IMG/VR virus record: IMGVR_UViG_3300050029_000047
Coordinates: 1 to 28,306 of that record
Direction: 5' to 3' (one strand)
DNA from: a virus
DNA: 28,306 nucleotides
Within the stretch, counting starts at the first letter, position 1. Each line of letters begins with the position of its first letter. The translations under genes were made by a program, and so were the position numbers. The notes beneath the pieces are model-generated. The model made no database searches and was not told the DNA's origin. It saw only the letters and a list, made by a program, of their open reading frames with translations. Shown in pieces: positions 16,330 through 27,922 of this stretch.

Positions 16330-16761
16330 TTACGCCTTGCCTTCCTTAGCCAGATCCTGGAGCAGTTGCTTTGCCAGGATCTCAGCCTGCGCCACGCCCC
16401 AGACAGTCTTGGGGTCCATACCAATCTGGCCGGCAATGTCCGTAAAGGACCGCTTCACGGACTGGTCCTGAATGAACTCGACGCAGCGCTTGGTCATGTG
16501 GCGCTTCTCGTCCAGGTCAGGCAGCGGTTGAAGGAACGTGACACCACAGGCGCGACAACGGTAGCGCTTGCGTATCAGGTTGACGCTCAGAGGCTTGCCC
16601 CACAGCGGCGCATCCCTGATGGTCTGGGCGCGAGTGCCGTGCTTGTAAAGCTCGCCTATCACGCCGCAGCTAATGCAGGCTTTAGGCTCAACGTCATACG
16701 AGCCTTCCACACGATATTCCCCGCTGACTTCTTTGCGGGAATGAATAGACCAATCAGGCAT
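16330..16761 (-). CDS. Free-standing ISL3-transposase-like zinc finger/HTH protein
   Basis: 143 residues. The opening (YDVEPKACISCGVIGELYKH, then DAPLWGKPLSVNLIRKRYRC and CGVTFLQPLPDLDE) is the zinc-finger domain of ISL3-family transposases, with two CxxC pairs. The next part (MTKRCVEFIQDQ, FTDIAGQIGMDPKTVWGVA) is the ISL3 helix-turn-helix. The frame ends at KEGKA. No DDE catalytic domain follows in any frame down to 16200 and no terminal repeats are seen. Either a truncated transposase remnant or a domesticated DNA-binding regulator. ATG 16761 lacks a strong ribosome-binding site and lies 18 nt after the upstream stop. Confidence 0.75.
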   Translation of the reverse strand: MPDWSIHSRKEVSGEYRVEGSYDVEPKACISCGVIGELYKHGTRAQTIRDAPLWGKPLSVNLIRKRYRCRACGVTFLQPLPDLDEKRHMTKRCVEFIQDQSVKRSFTDIAGQIGMDPKTVWGVAQAEILAKQLLQDLAKEGKA

Positions 16762-17067: not shown

Positions 17068-17269
17068 CGTTCTCTCCTTAGTAGATTCCACACTCAAATC
17101 CCTAGAAGGACTATGGCACACAATCATGGATTCCACCTAGGAACTTGCATGAAAGTTTTGGATGCGCGGATTAGGCGGGCTTATGCTTGACAATCGGATA
17201 ATGTAGGCAGAAGATACGGGTTCTGGCCGTGATGGGCTATTGCAGGGATTACCTTTTGACTCTTTCCAC

Positions 17270-17340
17270 CACCACCGCGCCCCATAGCCCTACGGTGCAC
17301 TCTTTGGCCGTCCATCACCTATGGGTGTTTAGCGGTGGTG
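17270..17340. repeat. Nested inverted repeats before the replication genes
   Basis: Outer arms CACCACCGC (17270-17278) and GCGGTGGTG (17332-17340) are perfect over 9 bp. Inner arms CCCATAG (17281-17287) and CTATGGG (17319-17325) are perfect over 7 bp, in register with the outer pair. The 31-nt loop holds further short complementarities. The structure ends 16 nt before ATG 17357 and just before its GAAAGGGG ribosome-binding site. It could be a structured mRNA leader, a small RNA or an origin element. Confidence 0.75.
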
Positions 17341-17356
17341 CTGAAAGGGGTTAGAC

Positions 17357-17521
17357 ATGGATCAAGCAACCGAGGCAAGGCTTAAAGTCCTCGAACAGAT
17401 GGCTTACGCTTATTGGCGCTATGGAAAACAAAAGCGGGAATGGCTGGAAACGCACCCTTTTGCTACCCCGATGGCTATAGCAAAAGCCTTGATCGAAATA
17501 GCTGAAAAACTCGGCCTTTGA
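17357..17521 (+). CDS. 54-residue helical protein preceding the replication initiator
   Basis: ATG 17357 has GAAAGGGG about 7 nt upstream. The product starts MDQATEARLKVLEQMAYAYW, has a HPFATPMAIAKALIE turn-helix in the second half and ends AEKLGL, so it is entirely helical. It is separated by 1 nt from the replication gene start (17523) and follows a strongly structured leader. It may be a small loader or regulator of replication, but no family is recognised. Confidence 0.6.
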   Translation: MDQATEARLKVLEQMAYAYWRYGKQKREWLETHPFATPMAIAKALIEIAEKLGL

Positions 17522-17522
17522 C

Positions 17523-18170
17523 ATGCCGATATTCGTCAAGAATTGGGCCAAATTCCAGCATTTCAGGAACCGCAGTTCGCCGTGGATTAAGCTGTATCGA
17601 GACCTCCTTGACGATCCAGACTGGCATAAACTTGATCCAAAAGCCGCAAAAACGCTAATAATGCTCTGGATGTCAGCTTTTGGACAGTCTGGCGAACTTC
17701 CAAAGGCGCACAAACTAGCGTTTAGGCTTAGAATGTCTGAAAAGGAGCTTAATCAGCAGCTTATCACATTAAATTATTGGCTGATACGAGATGATATCGA
17801 ATTGATATCAAATGGATTTAAGATTGATTCTACAGAGAGAGAGGGAGAGGAGAAGAGAGGAGAGAGAGACGCGCAATCCGAATTGATATCAAAGTCTGGT
17901 CGAAAGCACAAACCGTTAGCGAGAACCATTCCTGATAACTGGATGCCTTCGGAGAACACGCTTAACCGCCTCGGGAGTGAATTCAAATTCACGAACGGAG
18001 ACGCCGAAAGATACATCGCCGCTTTCTGCGATCAGTGCAAAGCCAAAGGTTACGAGTACCGCGATTTTGATGCCGCATTCTCAAACTGTGTGCGCCAAGA
18101 TTGGCCCAAGTTCCGCAATGGATTGCGCACCATGCCCAAGAATCAAGACCCGCGCCGCCCGGAGTATTGA
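17523..18170 (+). CDS. Replication initiation protein, DnaT/O-like
   Basis: 215 residues. The N-terminal ~90 residues (SPWIKLYRDLLDDPDWHKLD, LRMSEKELNQQLITLNYWLI) match the winged-helix module of phage replication proteins. A charged linker encoded by a purine run follows. The C-terminal ~75 residues (RTIPDNWMPSENTLNRLGSE ... DFDAAFSNCVRQDWPKF) match the DnaT-like C-terminal domain, which binds single-stranded DNA and helicase. It would load the helicase encoded immediately downstream (18174). Iteron-like repeats lie inside the gene, as in lambda O. Confidence 0.75.
   Translation: MPIFVKNWAKFQHFRNRSSPWIKLYRDLLDDPDWHKLDPKAAKTLIMLWMSAFGQSGELPKAHKLAFRLRMSEKELNQQLITLNYWLIRDDIELISNGFKIDSTEREGEEKRGERDAQSELISKSGRKHKPLARTIPDNWMPSENTLNRLGSEFKFTNGDAERYIAAFCDQCKAKGYEYRDFDAAFSNCVRQDWPKFRNGLRTMPKNQDPRRPEY
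17793..17893. repeat. Iteron-like palindromes and a polypurine run inside the initiator gene
   Basis: The 15-bp sequence CGAATTGATATCAAA occurs twice, at 17798-17812 and 17879-17893, 81 bp apart. Each contains the perfect palindrome TTGATATCAA. A third GATATC lies at 17793-17798. Between the copies, 17834-17869 is an uninterrupted 36-nt purine run. The layout resembles a phage origin placed within its initiator gene. Confidence 0.55.
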
Positions 18171-18173
18171 CCC

Positions 18174-19049
18174 GTGATTATTCCACACAGCCAAATCCAC
18201 GCCAAAGCCCGCGAGTTGTACGAATCCGGCGGTCTAAAGCCCGGACAGCGCACCGGCTGGCCCTCAGTCGATAAGCTATACACCGTAGCCATGCATCAGT
18301 GGACCATCATCACCGGAACGCCATCAAGCGGAAAATCCGAATGGCTTGACGCCCTCATGGTCAATCTAGCAAAGGGCGAAGAATGGCGCTTTTTTATCTT
18401 CAGCCCAGAGAATCAACCGCTCGCCCTGCATCATTCCAAGATCATTGAAAAGTACACCGGGAAGCCGTTCAATCCAGGCCCAACCCCACGCCTTGATCTG
18501 GACGAATTCGAGGAAGCTGAGAATTGGATGGCAGACAAGTTCTTTTTCTGCAAGCCCGAACATCCGGACATGGAATCAATTCTAGTCGAGGGAATCAATA
18601 GCATTTGCCATCCAGGCGCTGGGTTCAAGGCCGGCATCATCATTGACCCGTGGAACTTCCTCGAGCATCACCGGCCGCAATGGATGTCAGAGACGGAATA
18701 CGTCAGCGATTGCCTTAGCCGCGTGATTGAACACGTTCGCGGCAATCCTGTGCATCTGTGGCTGGTCGCCCATCCTGCCAAGCAATCACCGAACAAGAAC
18801 GGAGTCTATGCAATCCCTACGCCCCGTGATATATCAGGCTCTGCCCACTTCTGGAATAAAGCCGACAACTGCATCACGGTATGGCGCGATCAGACAGCAC
18901 AACATTCCAGCGAGGTCGAGATACACCTTCAAAAAGTCCGCTGGAAACACATCGGGCATCAAGGCATTGCAAAGCTCGATTACGATCTCGTTACTGGCAG
19001 ATACCGCGAGCAACTTGGAATGGCGAACTGGTATGAAAACAGAGTTTAG
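18174..19049 (+). CDS. Replicative DNA helicase, DnaB-like RecA-fold ATPase
   Basis: 291 residues from GTG 18174, with GGAG about 11 nt upstream. Walker A is GTPSSGKS (48-55) and the Walker B strand is GIIIDPWN. These are followed by a VHLWLVAHPAK motif and a C-terminal KVRWKHIGHQGIAKLDYD core, as in DnaB/Twinkle helicase C-terminal domains. The DnaB N-terminal domain is absent, so this is the short phage form. It would unwind DNA at the fork after loading by the upstream DnaT-like protein, 3 nt away. Confidence 0.85.
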   Translation: MIIPHSQIHAKARELYESGGLKPGQRTGWPSVDKLYTVAMHQWTIITGTPSSGKSEWLDALMVNLAKGEEWRFFIFSPENQPLALHHSKIIEKYTGKPFNPGPTPRLDLDEFEEAENWMADKFFFCKPEHPDMESILVEGINSICHPGAGFKAGIIIDPWNFLEHHRPQWMSETEYVSDCLSRVIEHVRGNPVHLWLVAHPAKQSPNKNGVYAIPTPRDISGSAHFWNKADNCITVWRDQTAQHSSEVEIHLQKVRWKHIGHQGIAKLDYDLVTGRYREQLGMANWYENRV

Positions 19050-19117
19050 AACGGCGGGGGCTTGAAAATGTTGAAATGCAAAAACAAATCATTATCGTTT
19101 ATGATAAAGGAGGGAAA

Positions 19118-19948
19118 ATGTACCTGATCGCAGAAATCGGAATTAATCACAACGGCAGCGAGGAATTAGCGAAGGCAATGATAAAATCCGCTGCTGATGC
19201 AGGATTTGACGCGGTGAAGTTTCAGAAGCGCACGATTGACAAGTGCTATACAAACGCTTTCCTTGATTCTCCTCGTGATTCTCCTTGGGGTACAACGCAG
19301 CGCGAGCAGAAGATGGCGCTTGAATTCACGCGAGCGAAATATGATTTCATTCACAGCTATTGCCGTGACGTTGGAATTGATTGGAGCGCGAGTTCATGGG
19401 ATATTGATAGCCAAGATTTCATCGCGAGTTATCATTGCGCGTTCAACAAAGTCGCATCACCCATGCTCAGCCATAAGCCGCTGTTGCATAAGATCGCCAC
19501 CGAGGGCAAGCGCACGTTTATCTCTACCGGCATGTCCTTTCTACGCGAGATTGACGAGGCAGTAAATATATTCACACAAGCCAATTGCCCGTTCGAGTTG
19601 ATGCATTGCAATTCCACGTACCCGATGCCGGACGATCAGGCGAACCTGCTGTGTATTCCGATGCTGCGCGAGCGGTATCAATGCGACGTGGGCTATTCAG
19701 GCCATGAAACGTCGCTCATCAAAGTCTGCGTTGCTGCTGCCGCGCTTGGGGCCACTTCAATTGAGCGGCATATCACGCTTGACCGGGCGATGTACGGCAG
19801 TGATCAGGCGGCGTCGATTGAAACGCACCACCTGAAAGACTTCGTTGAGGCTGTGCGCGCTGTGCCGGCGATATTGGGAAATGGTGTAAAGATGATTGCG
19901 GACAGCGAAGCGCCGGCGAGGGCGAAACTTAGACAGGAGGTAGCGTGA
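19118..19948 (+). CDS. NeuB-family nonulosonic acid synthase without SAF domain
   Basis: 276 residues from ATG 19118, preceded by a perfect AAGGAGG site; the upstream in-frame ATG 19076 is not used. The family pattern is complete: AEIGINHNG (5-13), AVKFQKR (32-38), ISTGMS (135-140), MHCNSTYP (162-169), VGYSGHE with metal ligand His196, and SIERHITLDRAMYGSD with metal ligand His218. Such enzymes condense phosphoenolpyruvate with an N-acetylhexosamine to give sialic, legionaminic or pseudaminic acid-type 9-carbon sugars. The usual C-terminal SAF domain (~60 residues) is missing. The exact substrate cannot be told. The next gene overlaps its stop. Confidence 0.88.
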   Translation: MYLIAEIGINHNGSEELAKAMIKSAADAGFDAVKFQKRTIDKCYTNAFLDSPRDSPWGTTQREQKMALEFTRAKYDFIHSYCRDVGIDWSASSWDIDSQDFIASYHCAFNKVASPMLSHKPLLHKIATEGKRTFISTGMSFLREIDEAVNIFTQANCPFELMHCNSTYPMPDDQANLLCIPMLRERYQCDVGYSGHETSLIKVCVAAAALGATSIERHITLDRAMYGSDQAASIETHHLKDFVEAVRAVPAILGNGVKMIADSEAPARAKLRQEVA

Positions 19949-26319: not shown

Positions 26320-26969
26320 TGGTCACAATTATTCCGGCGCGGGGCGGCAGCAAGGGGCTACCCGGTAAAAATATCCGCATGTTCTGCGGCAAGCCGCTCT
26401 TAGCGTGGTCAATCCTGCAAGCGCCGGAACCGGTCTATGTTTCCTCGGATGACGATGAAATCCTGGCCGTAGCGCGTGAATATGGGGCCACAGGCATCAA
26501 ACGACCGCCTGAGCTTGCCACTGATACCGCCTCAAGCGAAAGCGCGTTGCTGCACGCCCTAGACACGATTGGCGATGTGGATAAAGTCGTATTCCTGCAA
26601 CCTACTTCGCCTCTTCGCTGGCATACGGACGCAGTCCGGGCGATCAAACTATTCGACGATAGCGGCGCGGATTCACTCTTTTCCTGCTGCGAATTGGAGG
26701 ATTTCTGCGCGTGGACTGAGGATAACGGAACCTTACGCGGATTGACATTTGACCCGTTCAATCGCGGCCGTAGGCAGGATCGCAAGCCGATCCACCTTGA
26801 AAATGGTTCAATCTACATCTTTAAGCCTGAAGTCCTACGAAAAGGCAACCGGCTAGGCGGGAAAGTGGTGCGTTACCCTATGCAATACTGGCAATCTTTC
26901 GAGATTGACGATCAAGAGACGTTTGACCTATGCCGCTTCTATTTCAGGCGCAAGGAACTAGACCTATGA
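26319..26969 (+). CDS. NeuA-like CMP-acylneuraminate cytidylyltransferase
   Basis: 216 residues from GTG 26319. The nucleotide-binding motif IIPARGGSKGLPGKN (4-18) is the hallmark of CMP-sialate synthetases and relatives. VVFLQPTSPLR, LENGSIYIFKP and SFEIDDQETFDLCRFY follow in the usual order. Such enzymes transfer CMP from CTP to a keto-acid sugar such as sialic, legionaminic or pseudaminic acid, giving the donor used by sialyltransferases. It overlaps the scaffold stop (TAGTG) and the next ATG (ATGA). The NeuB homologue at 19118 could supply its substrate. Confidence 0.87.
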   Translation: MVTIIPARGGSKGLPGKNIRMFCGKPLLAWSILQAPEPVYVSSDDDEILAVAREYGATGIKRPPELATDTASSESALLHALDTIGDVDKVVFLQPTSPLRWHTDAVRAIKLFDDSGADSLFSCCELEDFCAWTEDNGTLRGLTFDPFNRGRRQDRKPIHLENGSIYIFKPEVLRKGNRLGGKVVRYPMQYWQSFEIDDQETFDLCRFYFRRKELDL

Positions 26970-27922
26970 GGCTCGTCAATTTCAATGGGCAGTTGATTCC
27001 GGAGTCGCGCGCCAAGATTAGCATTTACGATTCAGCGCTCATGTTTGGTGACATGGTATTCGAGATGACGCGCTCATTCAACGGCAAGCAATTCAAGCTG
27101 CGCGAGCATCTGGAGCGCCTCTATTCCGGAATCAAGATACTGCGTATTCCTGTCGGTATCGACATTGACGAAATGGAACGCCGCTGCCACGAAACACAAG
27201 AGGCTAACCAATTCGCTCCGGATGATGAGCATCGGCTGATGATAGATGTTTCGCGTGGAACGCTAGGTATATATCAGGATGTGGTCGGGCTACACAAAGG
27301 CCCGAATATAATCATTTCCGACTTCCCATTGCGCTGGACTGTTGCCGGCATGGGCCATCTTTTCGATTCCGGCATCAATGCGGTTATTCCAAGCCAGCGG
27401 GCCATACCGGCGAGCTTGCTTGACCCTAAGATCAAGAACCGCAGCCGGATTCACTATCAGATGGCAAATATCGAAGTTTCGCAGACTATGGGCGAGGATA
27501 ATTGGGCGCTATTGCTTGATCCTGATGGAAATATTGCAGAGGGAACGGGGGATAACTTTTTCATCATCAAAGATGGTTCCCTGATAACACCGGAACCGCG
27601 CAATATTCTGAGGGGGATTAGCAGGGATTACGTTATGCGTTTAGCTGGCTTGCAGGAATTGGGTTTAGAAGTAGTGGAGCGCAATATCAGCCCTTACGAC
27701 GTATATACCGCCGATGAAGCATTTATGACTGGCACGCCGTTCTGTATGCTGCCGGTCTGTACGCTGAATGGTATTCCGATTGGATGCGGCACGCCGGGGA
27801 CATACTATCAATCGATCCTTGGATATTGGTCAACTTTCGCCGGCGTGGACATAAAAGCACAAATCAAGGCTTGGGATAGCGGGAAAGCGGGAAATGGCCC
27901 AACTCCGTACCAATTCGCCTAG
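26966..27922 (+). CDS. Class IV (fold-type IV) PLP-dependent aminotransferase
   Basis: 318 residues from ATG 26966, which overlaps the NeuA stop. The N-terminus (FNGQLIPESRAKISIYDSAL, then MFGDMVFEMTRSF) and REHLERLYSG fit the branched-chain/D-amino acid aminotransferase family. Lys157 in KIKNRSRIHYQMANIE is the probable PLP-binding lysine. Downstream are NIAEGTGDNFFIIKDG, TPEPRNILRGISRDYV and DEAFMTGTPFCMLPV, in family order. Members act on amino acids and keto acids; the nonulosonic pathways I know use DegT-type enzymes instead, so the substrate here is open. Last gene before the coat promoter. Confidence 0.88.
   Translation: MRLVNFNGQLIPESRAKISIYDSALMFGDMVFEMTRSFNGKQFKLREHLERLYSGIKILRIPVGIDIDEMERRCHETQEANQFAPDDEHRLMIDVSRGTLGIYQDVVGLHKGPNIIISDFPLRWTVAGMGHLFDSGINAVIPSQRAIPASLLDPKIKNRSRIHYQMANIEVSQTMGEDNWALLLDPDGNIAEGTGDNFFIIKDGSLITPEPRNILRGISRDYVMRLAGLQELGLEVVERNISPYDVYTADEAFMTGTPFCMLPVCTLNGIPIGCGTPGTYYQSILGYWSTFAGVDIKAQIKAWDSGKAGNGPTPYQFA

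Follow-up and report, generated by a model that had tools for sequence, protein, structure and literature searches.

In the IncI-alpha plasmid ColIb-P9, translation of repZ depends on a pseudoknot upstream of the ribosome-binding site, and an antisense RNA stops that pseudoknot from forming (excerpts of PMC8383071). In the satellite phage P4, the replication genes are repressed by premature termination via a processed antisense RNA, a trans RNA with two target sites (excerpts of PMC4825925). The RNA motifs noted for phages include manA, wcaG and c4, and these three carry Rfam numbers (excerpts of PMC2864571).

The locus considered here lies in the window, the 28,306-base stretch (positions 1-28,306) that was analysed from IMG/VR virus record IMGVR_UViG_3300050029_000047; as the nearest genes on its left run the opposite way, the element occupies a divergent spacer, and its features and those of the operon that follows are collected in Table 1. 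The stretch 17222-17356 is considered to be the replication operon's 5' untranslated leader, acting in cis as an RNA switch, with a probability of about 0.58. It resembles the repZ system in that both are replication-gene leaders in which an upstream hairpin offers its loop for pairing to a strand close to the ribosome-binding site; however, the ColIb-P9 pseudoknot activates, whereas in the window the pairing of the H1 loop with the tip of the long hairpin P1 (the kiss) should close the stem covering the Shine-Dalgarno (SD) sequence, since the kissing strand lies inside that stem, and no strong antisense promoter was found. What it has in common with the P4 CI system is an untranslated leader of phage replication genes that engages in RNA-RNA pairing, and at this place the larger leader class R1 described below has a terminator; in contrast to the processed trans RNA of P4, a single short leader here contains both partner strands, and where the terminator would be, the window has an SD.

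No Rfam family matched the window-type leader or the R1 leaders compared. With Rfam 15 at gathering score the whole window gave no match, c4 antisense RNA (RF01695), manA and wcaG included; with E values up to 10 the element itself gave only a microRNA model (E 6.2) on the opposite strand. No family was found for eight loci near the window, nor for 11 loci bearing R1 elements. The titles, abstract openings and passages covered in the literature contain no description of these leaders; this is a weak negative, as subscription journals are little covered.

Table 1. Features of the leader and of the operon that follows it (window coordinates).
Feature	Position	Strand	Basis or remark
Promoter-like pair TTGACA-17-GAAGAT (9/12)	17187-17215	+	ends 8 nt upstream of H1
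H1, 5-bp hairpin with 6-nt loop GUGAUG (17229-17234)	17224-17239	+	presumed RNA 5' end
P1 5' arm (includes arms 17270-17278 and 17281-17287)	17255-17288	+	fold, covariation
P2, small inner stem 17292-17296/17307-17311, 10-nt loop	17292-17311	+	fold; 4/5 pairs kept in L251
Kissing strand CAUCAC in P1 tip	17313-17318	+	complementary to H1 loop 17229-17234
P1 3' arm, carries SD-like AAGGGG (17345-17350)	17319-17355	+	fold, sequence
Small protein, 54 aa (HPxATP family)	17357-17521	+	first gene 3' of leader
Replication protein, phrog_26426	17523-18170	+	begins 1 nt past stop of gene 17357
Helicase, phrog_239 (DNA primase/helicase), DnaB-like	18174-19049	+	

The original prediction started from two arm pairs, 17270-17278/17332-17340 and 17281-17287/17319-17325, which are exact, perfect and both present in the minimum-energy fold; the long branched hairpin drawn from them is right in kind, the element being larger (17224-17355, H1 included) with the arms as its middle. 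In the minimum-energy fold of 17255-17360, P1 spans 17255-17355 and its foot pairs 17255-17265 with 17345-17355, so that the AAGGGG, which sits six bases upstream of the ATG of gene 17357, is wholly paired; in the original prediction the hairpin's base ended next to this ribosome-binding site. This fold has an energy of −45.7 kcal/mol (z −3.73; 0 of 200 shuffles equally stable). The fold energy alone of P1 is not exceptional: P1 does not rank among the window's 40 most stable 100-nt stretches, most of which lie in GC-rich parts; GC-rich stretches of the window equal or exceed it in stability, and no stem in the window exceeded the reporting score of 34 of a strict long-stem scan. That the repeats are too ordered for chance does not hold by energy; it holds because of the compensatory changes seen in relatives.

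H1 and its pairing with the P1 tip did not figure in the original prediction. The nearest relative found, L251, also has promoter-like boxes (TTGACA-17-CATTGT, 9/12), with the spacing and distance to H1 seen in the window; these boxes place the start of the RNA at H1, probably near 17222. A generic promoter scan of the window reported none. Shuffling confined to the bases before P1 (39 nt in the window) yields a chance kissing hairpin in 34 of 20000 trials; the same control with P1 held fixed gives 41, 61 and 64 of 20000 for the relatives L251, L022 and L023, and whole-leader shuffles give the plan in 1-2 of 4000 for all four leaders. The weight of the kissing descriptor comes from its position and not from its genome-wide frequency: it is frequent across genomes, without enrichment on the + strand (462 matches against 536 on the − strand), whereas scores of at least 15 occur in 5 of 118 near leaders with 0.65 expected and in 2 of 330 far gaps with 1.6 expected. 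A search for the exact loop pattern found no match. A second pseudoknot between the H1-P1 linker and the P2 loop (CAGGGA/UCUUUG) is possible in the window, with three of its six pairs broken in L251 (alignment A5). A direct repeat, GGCCGT, is present at 17225-17230 on the 5' side of H1 and at 17306-17311 in the 3' arm of P2, likewise in L251; this suggests an alternative pairing in which the two copies could compete for one partner strand.

Searches with the replication protein and helicase returned 19, 13, 80, 22 and 24 loci, partly overlapping. L251 (helicase 77%) carries the same leader before its own version of the 54-aa gene; both it and the window have GGCCGTGATGG upstream, where it forms part of H1, and GGCCGTCCATCAC in the P1 tip, and the H1 of L251 (UGGCC-GUGAUG-GGCCA) has a G-C pair for a G-U pair of the window. 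Over the 47 pairs of P1, P2, H1 and the kiss, three have two-sided changes that keep pairing, five one-sided changes that keep pairing and four are broken; all five pairing-preserving one-sided changes swap G-U with G-C or A-U. For the window and L251 alone the shuffle control failed, the score being reached in 58 of 500, while slid controls gave no two-sided changes. A covariance model, R2, was built from these two leaders without any pseudoknot; applied to 95 sources (831 kb), it returned one new locus, L258 (35 bits, E 2.4e-6), its other matches being the two leaders from which it was built and the opposite strand of L251. In L258 the H1 loop CUGAACA pairs with UGUUCAG in the P1 tip, the P1 foot carries the SD, and the next gene encodes a small protein (HPRSTPEEY, GTG start); its H1 is weak, with only three Watson-Crick pairs and an 8-nt loop, and such a loosened kiss appears in 533 of 20000 shuffles.

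Compensatory changes, for which the original prediction had asked that relatives be checked and whose absence would have told against it, are present among the three leaders: at 10 of the 47 pairs both bases differ with pairing kept, and the paired fraction of cells is 93.9%, in an alignment that was fitted to the nested structure of R2 so that its nested pairs lean towards that structure. Slid controls gave 0-1 two-sided pairs and none of 500 shuffles reached the observed value. The kissing pairs stand outside the model, and there L258 has letters in only four of six columns, one with a two-sided change. The features by which the window type is defined here (an R2 match, an SD in the P1 foot, a kiss between H1 and the P1 tip and an HPxATP gene next) were all found. 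R2 had no match in 78 R1-bearing or related sources, and the window leader had none in 50,697 phage records or in 399 Burkholderiales genomes.

Three candidates had been offered for the element: a structured leader controlling helicase and initiator translation, a small RNA, and a replication or partition site. The structured leader is the best supported, because of the covariation in relatives, the ribosome-binding site inside the stem and the promoter-like boxes at H1; the gene that it directly covers is the 54-aa gene 17357, and the helicase and initiator would come under it only by coupling. The product of gene 17357 has no PHROGs or Pfam match, and no relatives of it were found by pattern searches or in isolated phages; its homologues lie directly 3' of the leader in L022, L023, L251 and L258, giving a small HPxATP gene next in all five loci, and the replication protein and helicase genes follow within 1-3 nt. 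A stand-alone small RNA may be made from the element.

The structure, consisting of H1, P1 with the ribosome-binding site in its foot, P2 and the pairing of the H1 loop with the P1 tip, is well supported by sequence comparison; for its regulation and trigger, we infer the following course. H1 would fold first as the RNA leaves the polymerase, and its loop would then catch the P1 tip and lock P1 closed; with P1 closed, ribosomes should not start at gene 17357, and the replication protein and helicase would be held low by coupling to it. P1 would be opened, and replication turned on, by something that competes for either kissing partner; candidates are a protein of the phage or the host, an RNA, and the folding kinetics of early infection. 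The kiss should favour the closed form, with a paired SD in the window type and a formed terminator in R1; the switch could also work in the opposite direction, with the kiss opening rather than closing, as in ColIb-P9. The best reading of the comparison is that the leader masks the ribosome-binding site and gates entry into replication; that related phages keep its shape while the letters change suggests an RNA switch, so far uncatalogued, by which phage replication is started. The timing of the first replication round after infection is explained mostly by proteins; a switch of this kind, if real, would place an RNA-based control beside them, in metagenomic phages as well as in Burkholderia and Iodobacter isolates, testable in culturable phages, and the two covariance models (R1 and R2) could be used to search other genomes.

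The same plan in unrelated letters is present in L022 and L023, with an H1 of GCGCU-GUGAGA-AGCGC, a kissing strand UCUCAC in the P1 tip, a nearly unbroken P1 of about 27 bp whose foot carries the SD, and a homologous small gene next; the leader z scores are −6.9 and −6.0, respectively. Both were among the 95 sources searched with R2 and gave no match, only the architecture being in common. An unlikely alternative is that P1 is an RNase III processing site, cut to give a stable and efficiently translated mRNA in the manner of the intercistronic sites of T7 and the leader of lambda N. The length of P1 would fit this, above all in L022 and L023, where the stem ends at the SD; however, H1 and the kissing strand would be unneeded for cleavage, yet they are kept with changing letters, and P1 in R1 contains a mismatch and runs out into a U-tract.

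A search for the same plan elsewhere led to the larger phage leader class R1, whose H1-P1 kiss before homologous replication genes also speaks for the switch reading; it was noticed in L013 and L263 (MW202462) among leaders before relatives of the window's replication protein. In these two, an H1 loop UUGGCG can pair with CGCCAA in a three-way junction, and P1 and a U-tract follow before the replication gene; the likeness to the ColIb-P9 repZ leader extends to the loop letters UUGGCG, which appear in the title of Asano et al. 1998 (reference list of PMC10724649). A pattern scan of IMG/VR returned at least 120 stretches with about 10 expected by chance by our own estimate; at least 122 pattern matches reduce to at least 72 distinct strings, of which at least 67 were kept as members, and L285 (with its copy L302), L283, L299, L353 and L290 were removed from the 72 by eye as non-members. 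Alignment A4 holds 48 of the 65 usable distinct sequences (66 were listed, L302 being out as a coding match), the other 17 having been omitted for redundancy and not for poor fit. In A4, 34 of 42 pairs have two-sided changes, 96.4% of cells pair against 70.9% in shuffles, the covariation is 0.658 against 0.182, and a second pseudoknot of the linker with the P2 loop has two-sided changes in 7/7 pairs. The scan pattern fixes the kiss, so A4 can hold no variation in the kissing pairs, and the kiss is tested only by members found through the model or by similarity. The R1 model finds Iodobacter phage PhiPLPE, an isolate with Iodobacter sp. CdM7 as host (90.5 bits), and scores 96, 95, 94 and 80 bits on the Burkholderia phages DC1, CSP3, BcepMigl and BcepIL02, which were reached via DNA similarity to L304; all of these retain UUGGCG/CGCCAA. 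L387, a member found by the model alone in a Burkholderiales genome, has UUGGUC/GACCAA and with it two compensated kissing pairs. The GenBank record of BcepIL02 marks terminators elsewhere and no regulatory feature at the R1 element. The −10-like boxes of R1 cluster 5-10 bases upstream of H1, against 8 in the window; among the 67 members listed, 13 precede homologues of the window's replication protein, four the small HPxATP protein, and three have no called ORF.

The window is not a member of R1: the model scores 0.1 bits on it (E 2.1 in 351 bases, filters off). It shares with R1 an H1 at the presumed +1, the kiss between the H1 loop and the P1 tip, a place directly before the first gene, and the order of P2, then UCC, then the kissing strand (P2-GUCC-kiss), in otherwise different letters; it lacks the P3 stem with a GAAA loop of most R1 members, their U-tract (17313-17356 searched) and a supported second pseudoknot, which with the kiss UUGGCG/CGCCAA are the features of R1. 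Common descent of the two leaders is possible on this comparison. It is a tentative proposal, with odds well short of even, that the window type and R1 belong, as two branches, to a single superfamily of phage RNA switches that has gone unrecognised and in which a 5'-terminal hairpin kisses a junction tip, the same sensing core being fitted to a ribosome-binding-site clamp in one branch and to a terminator in the other, as in riboswitches; many phages could thereby detect, ahead of DNA replication, some signal or factor of the cell they have infected.

The terminator that P1 of R1 forms directly before the first gene also bears on a quite unlikely alternative of the P4 CI or plasmid type, in which H1 or a processed fragment would target the leader of a second copy in trans and shut off the replication operon, as attenuation or antisense immunity. 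The processed antisense RNA of P4 is a precedent (excerpts of PMC4825925), and the complementarity of loop and tip would work between molecules too; against this, no strong opposite-strand promoter lies over the element (the best promoter-like site is 8/12), and the subset of window ORFs scanned contains no integrase or repressor. The R1 model matches 1 of 399 Burkholderiales genomes and 0 of 369 genomes of its class among the sampled hosts, so a prophage role is not evident. The RNA switch acting in cis also accounts for the element better than a DNA site, the replication or partition site of the original prediction, in which the inverted repeats would be recognised as DNA in an origin or operator; the position before replication genes would suit such a site and an inverted repeat covaries as DNA too, yet it is very improbable because the five G-U exchanges described above pair only in + strand RNA, and the order promoter-H1-P1-SD is fixed. 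A chance hairpin in a GC-rich spacer, for which the unexceptional energy could be cited, is scarcely credible, being contradicted by the covariation, the kiss shuffles and the independent R2 match in L258.

Several other loci were considered and not counted. L027 has CCCTACGGTG like the window and was dropped, its leader being barely above shuffles (z −1.3; 22 of 200); L006 has the small gene inside an operon without a leader hairpin; and L002 and L003 fit the plan at 2.2 kb upstream of the replication gene. Nesting depth as a score gave no discrimination, and the pattern CACCACCGC-N{20,45}-GCGGTGGTG returned 120 loci that are background only, the true gap being 53. Intrinsic-terminator hairpins with a loop complementary to that of an upstream hairpin occur in L174 (3028-3138), L175 (3306-3430) and L206 (2199-2282); these are possibly further kissing leaders and possibly chance.

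The window also contains two metabolic genes: one of the NeuB family (sialic-acid synthase-like) at 19076-19948 follows the helicase immediately, and one for a class IV aminotransferase lies at 26930-27922 near the right end. Adjoining the spacer of the leader on the − strand (16330-16761) is a gene for a 143-aa protein in which the zinc ribbon and the helix-turn-helix are the sole parts of an ISL3-family transposase; it is either a stand-alone DNA-binding protein or a remnant. Arrays of short palindromes like CTAGGAATATTCCTAG are present in many phage contigs (L205, L207, L212-L219, L224 and L226-L228), mostly about 100-320 bases upstream of a gene of about 580-590 aa that is itself upstream of a helicase relative; these arrays look like operator or iteron arrays.
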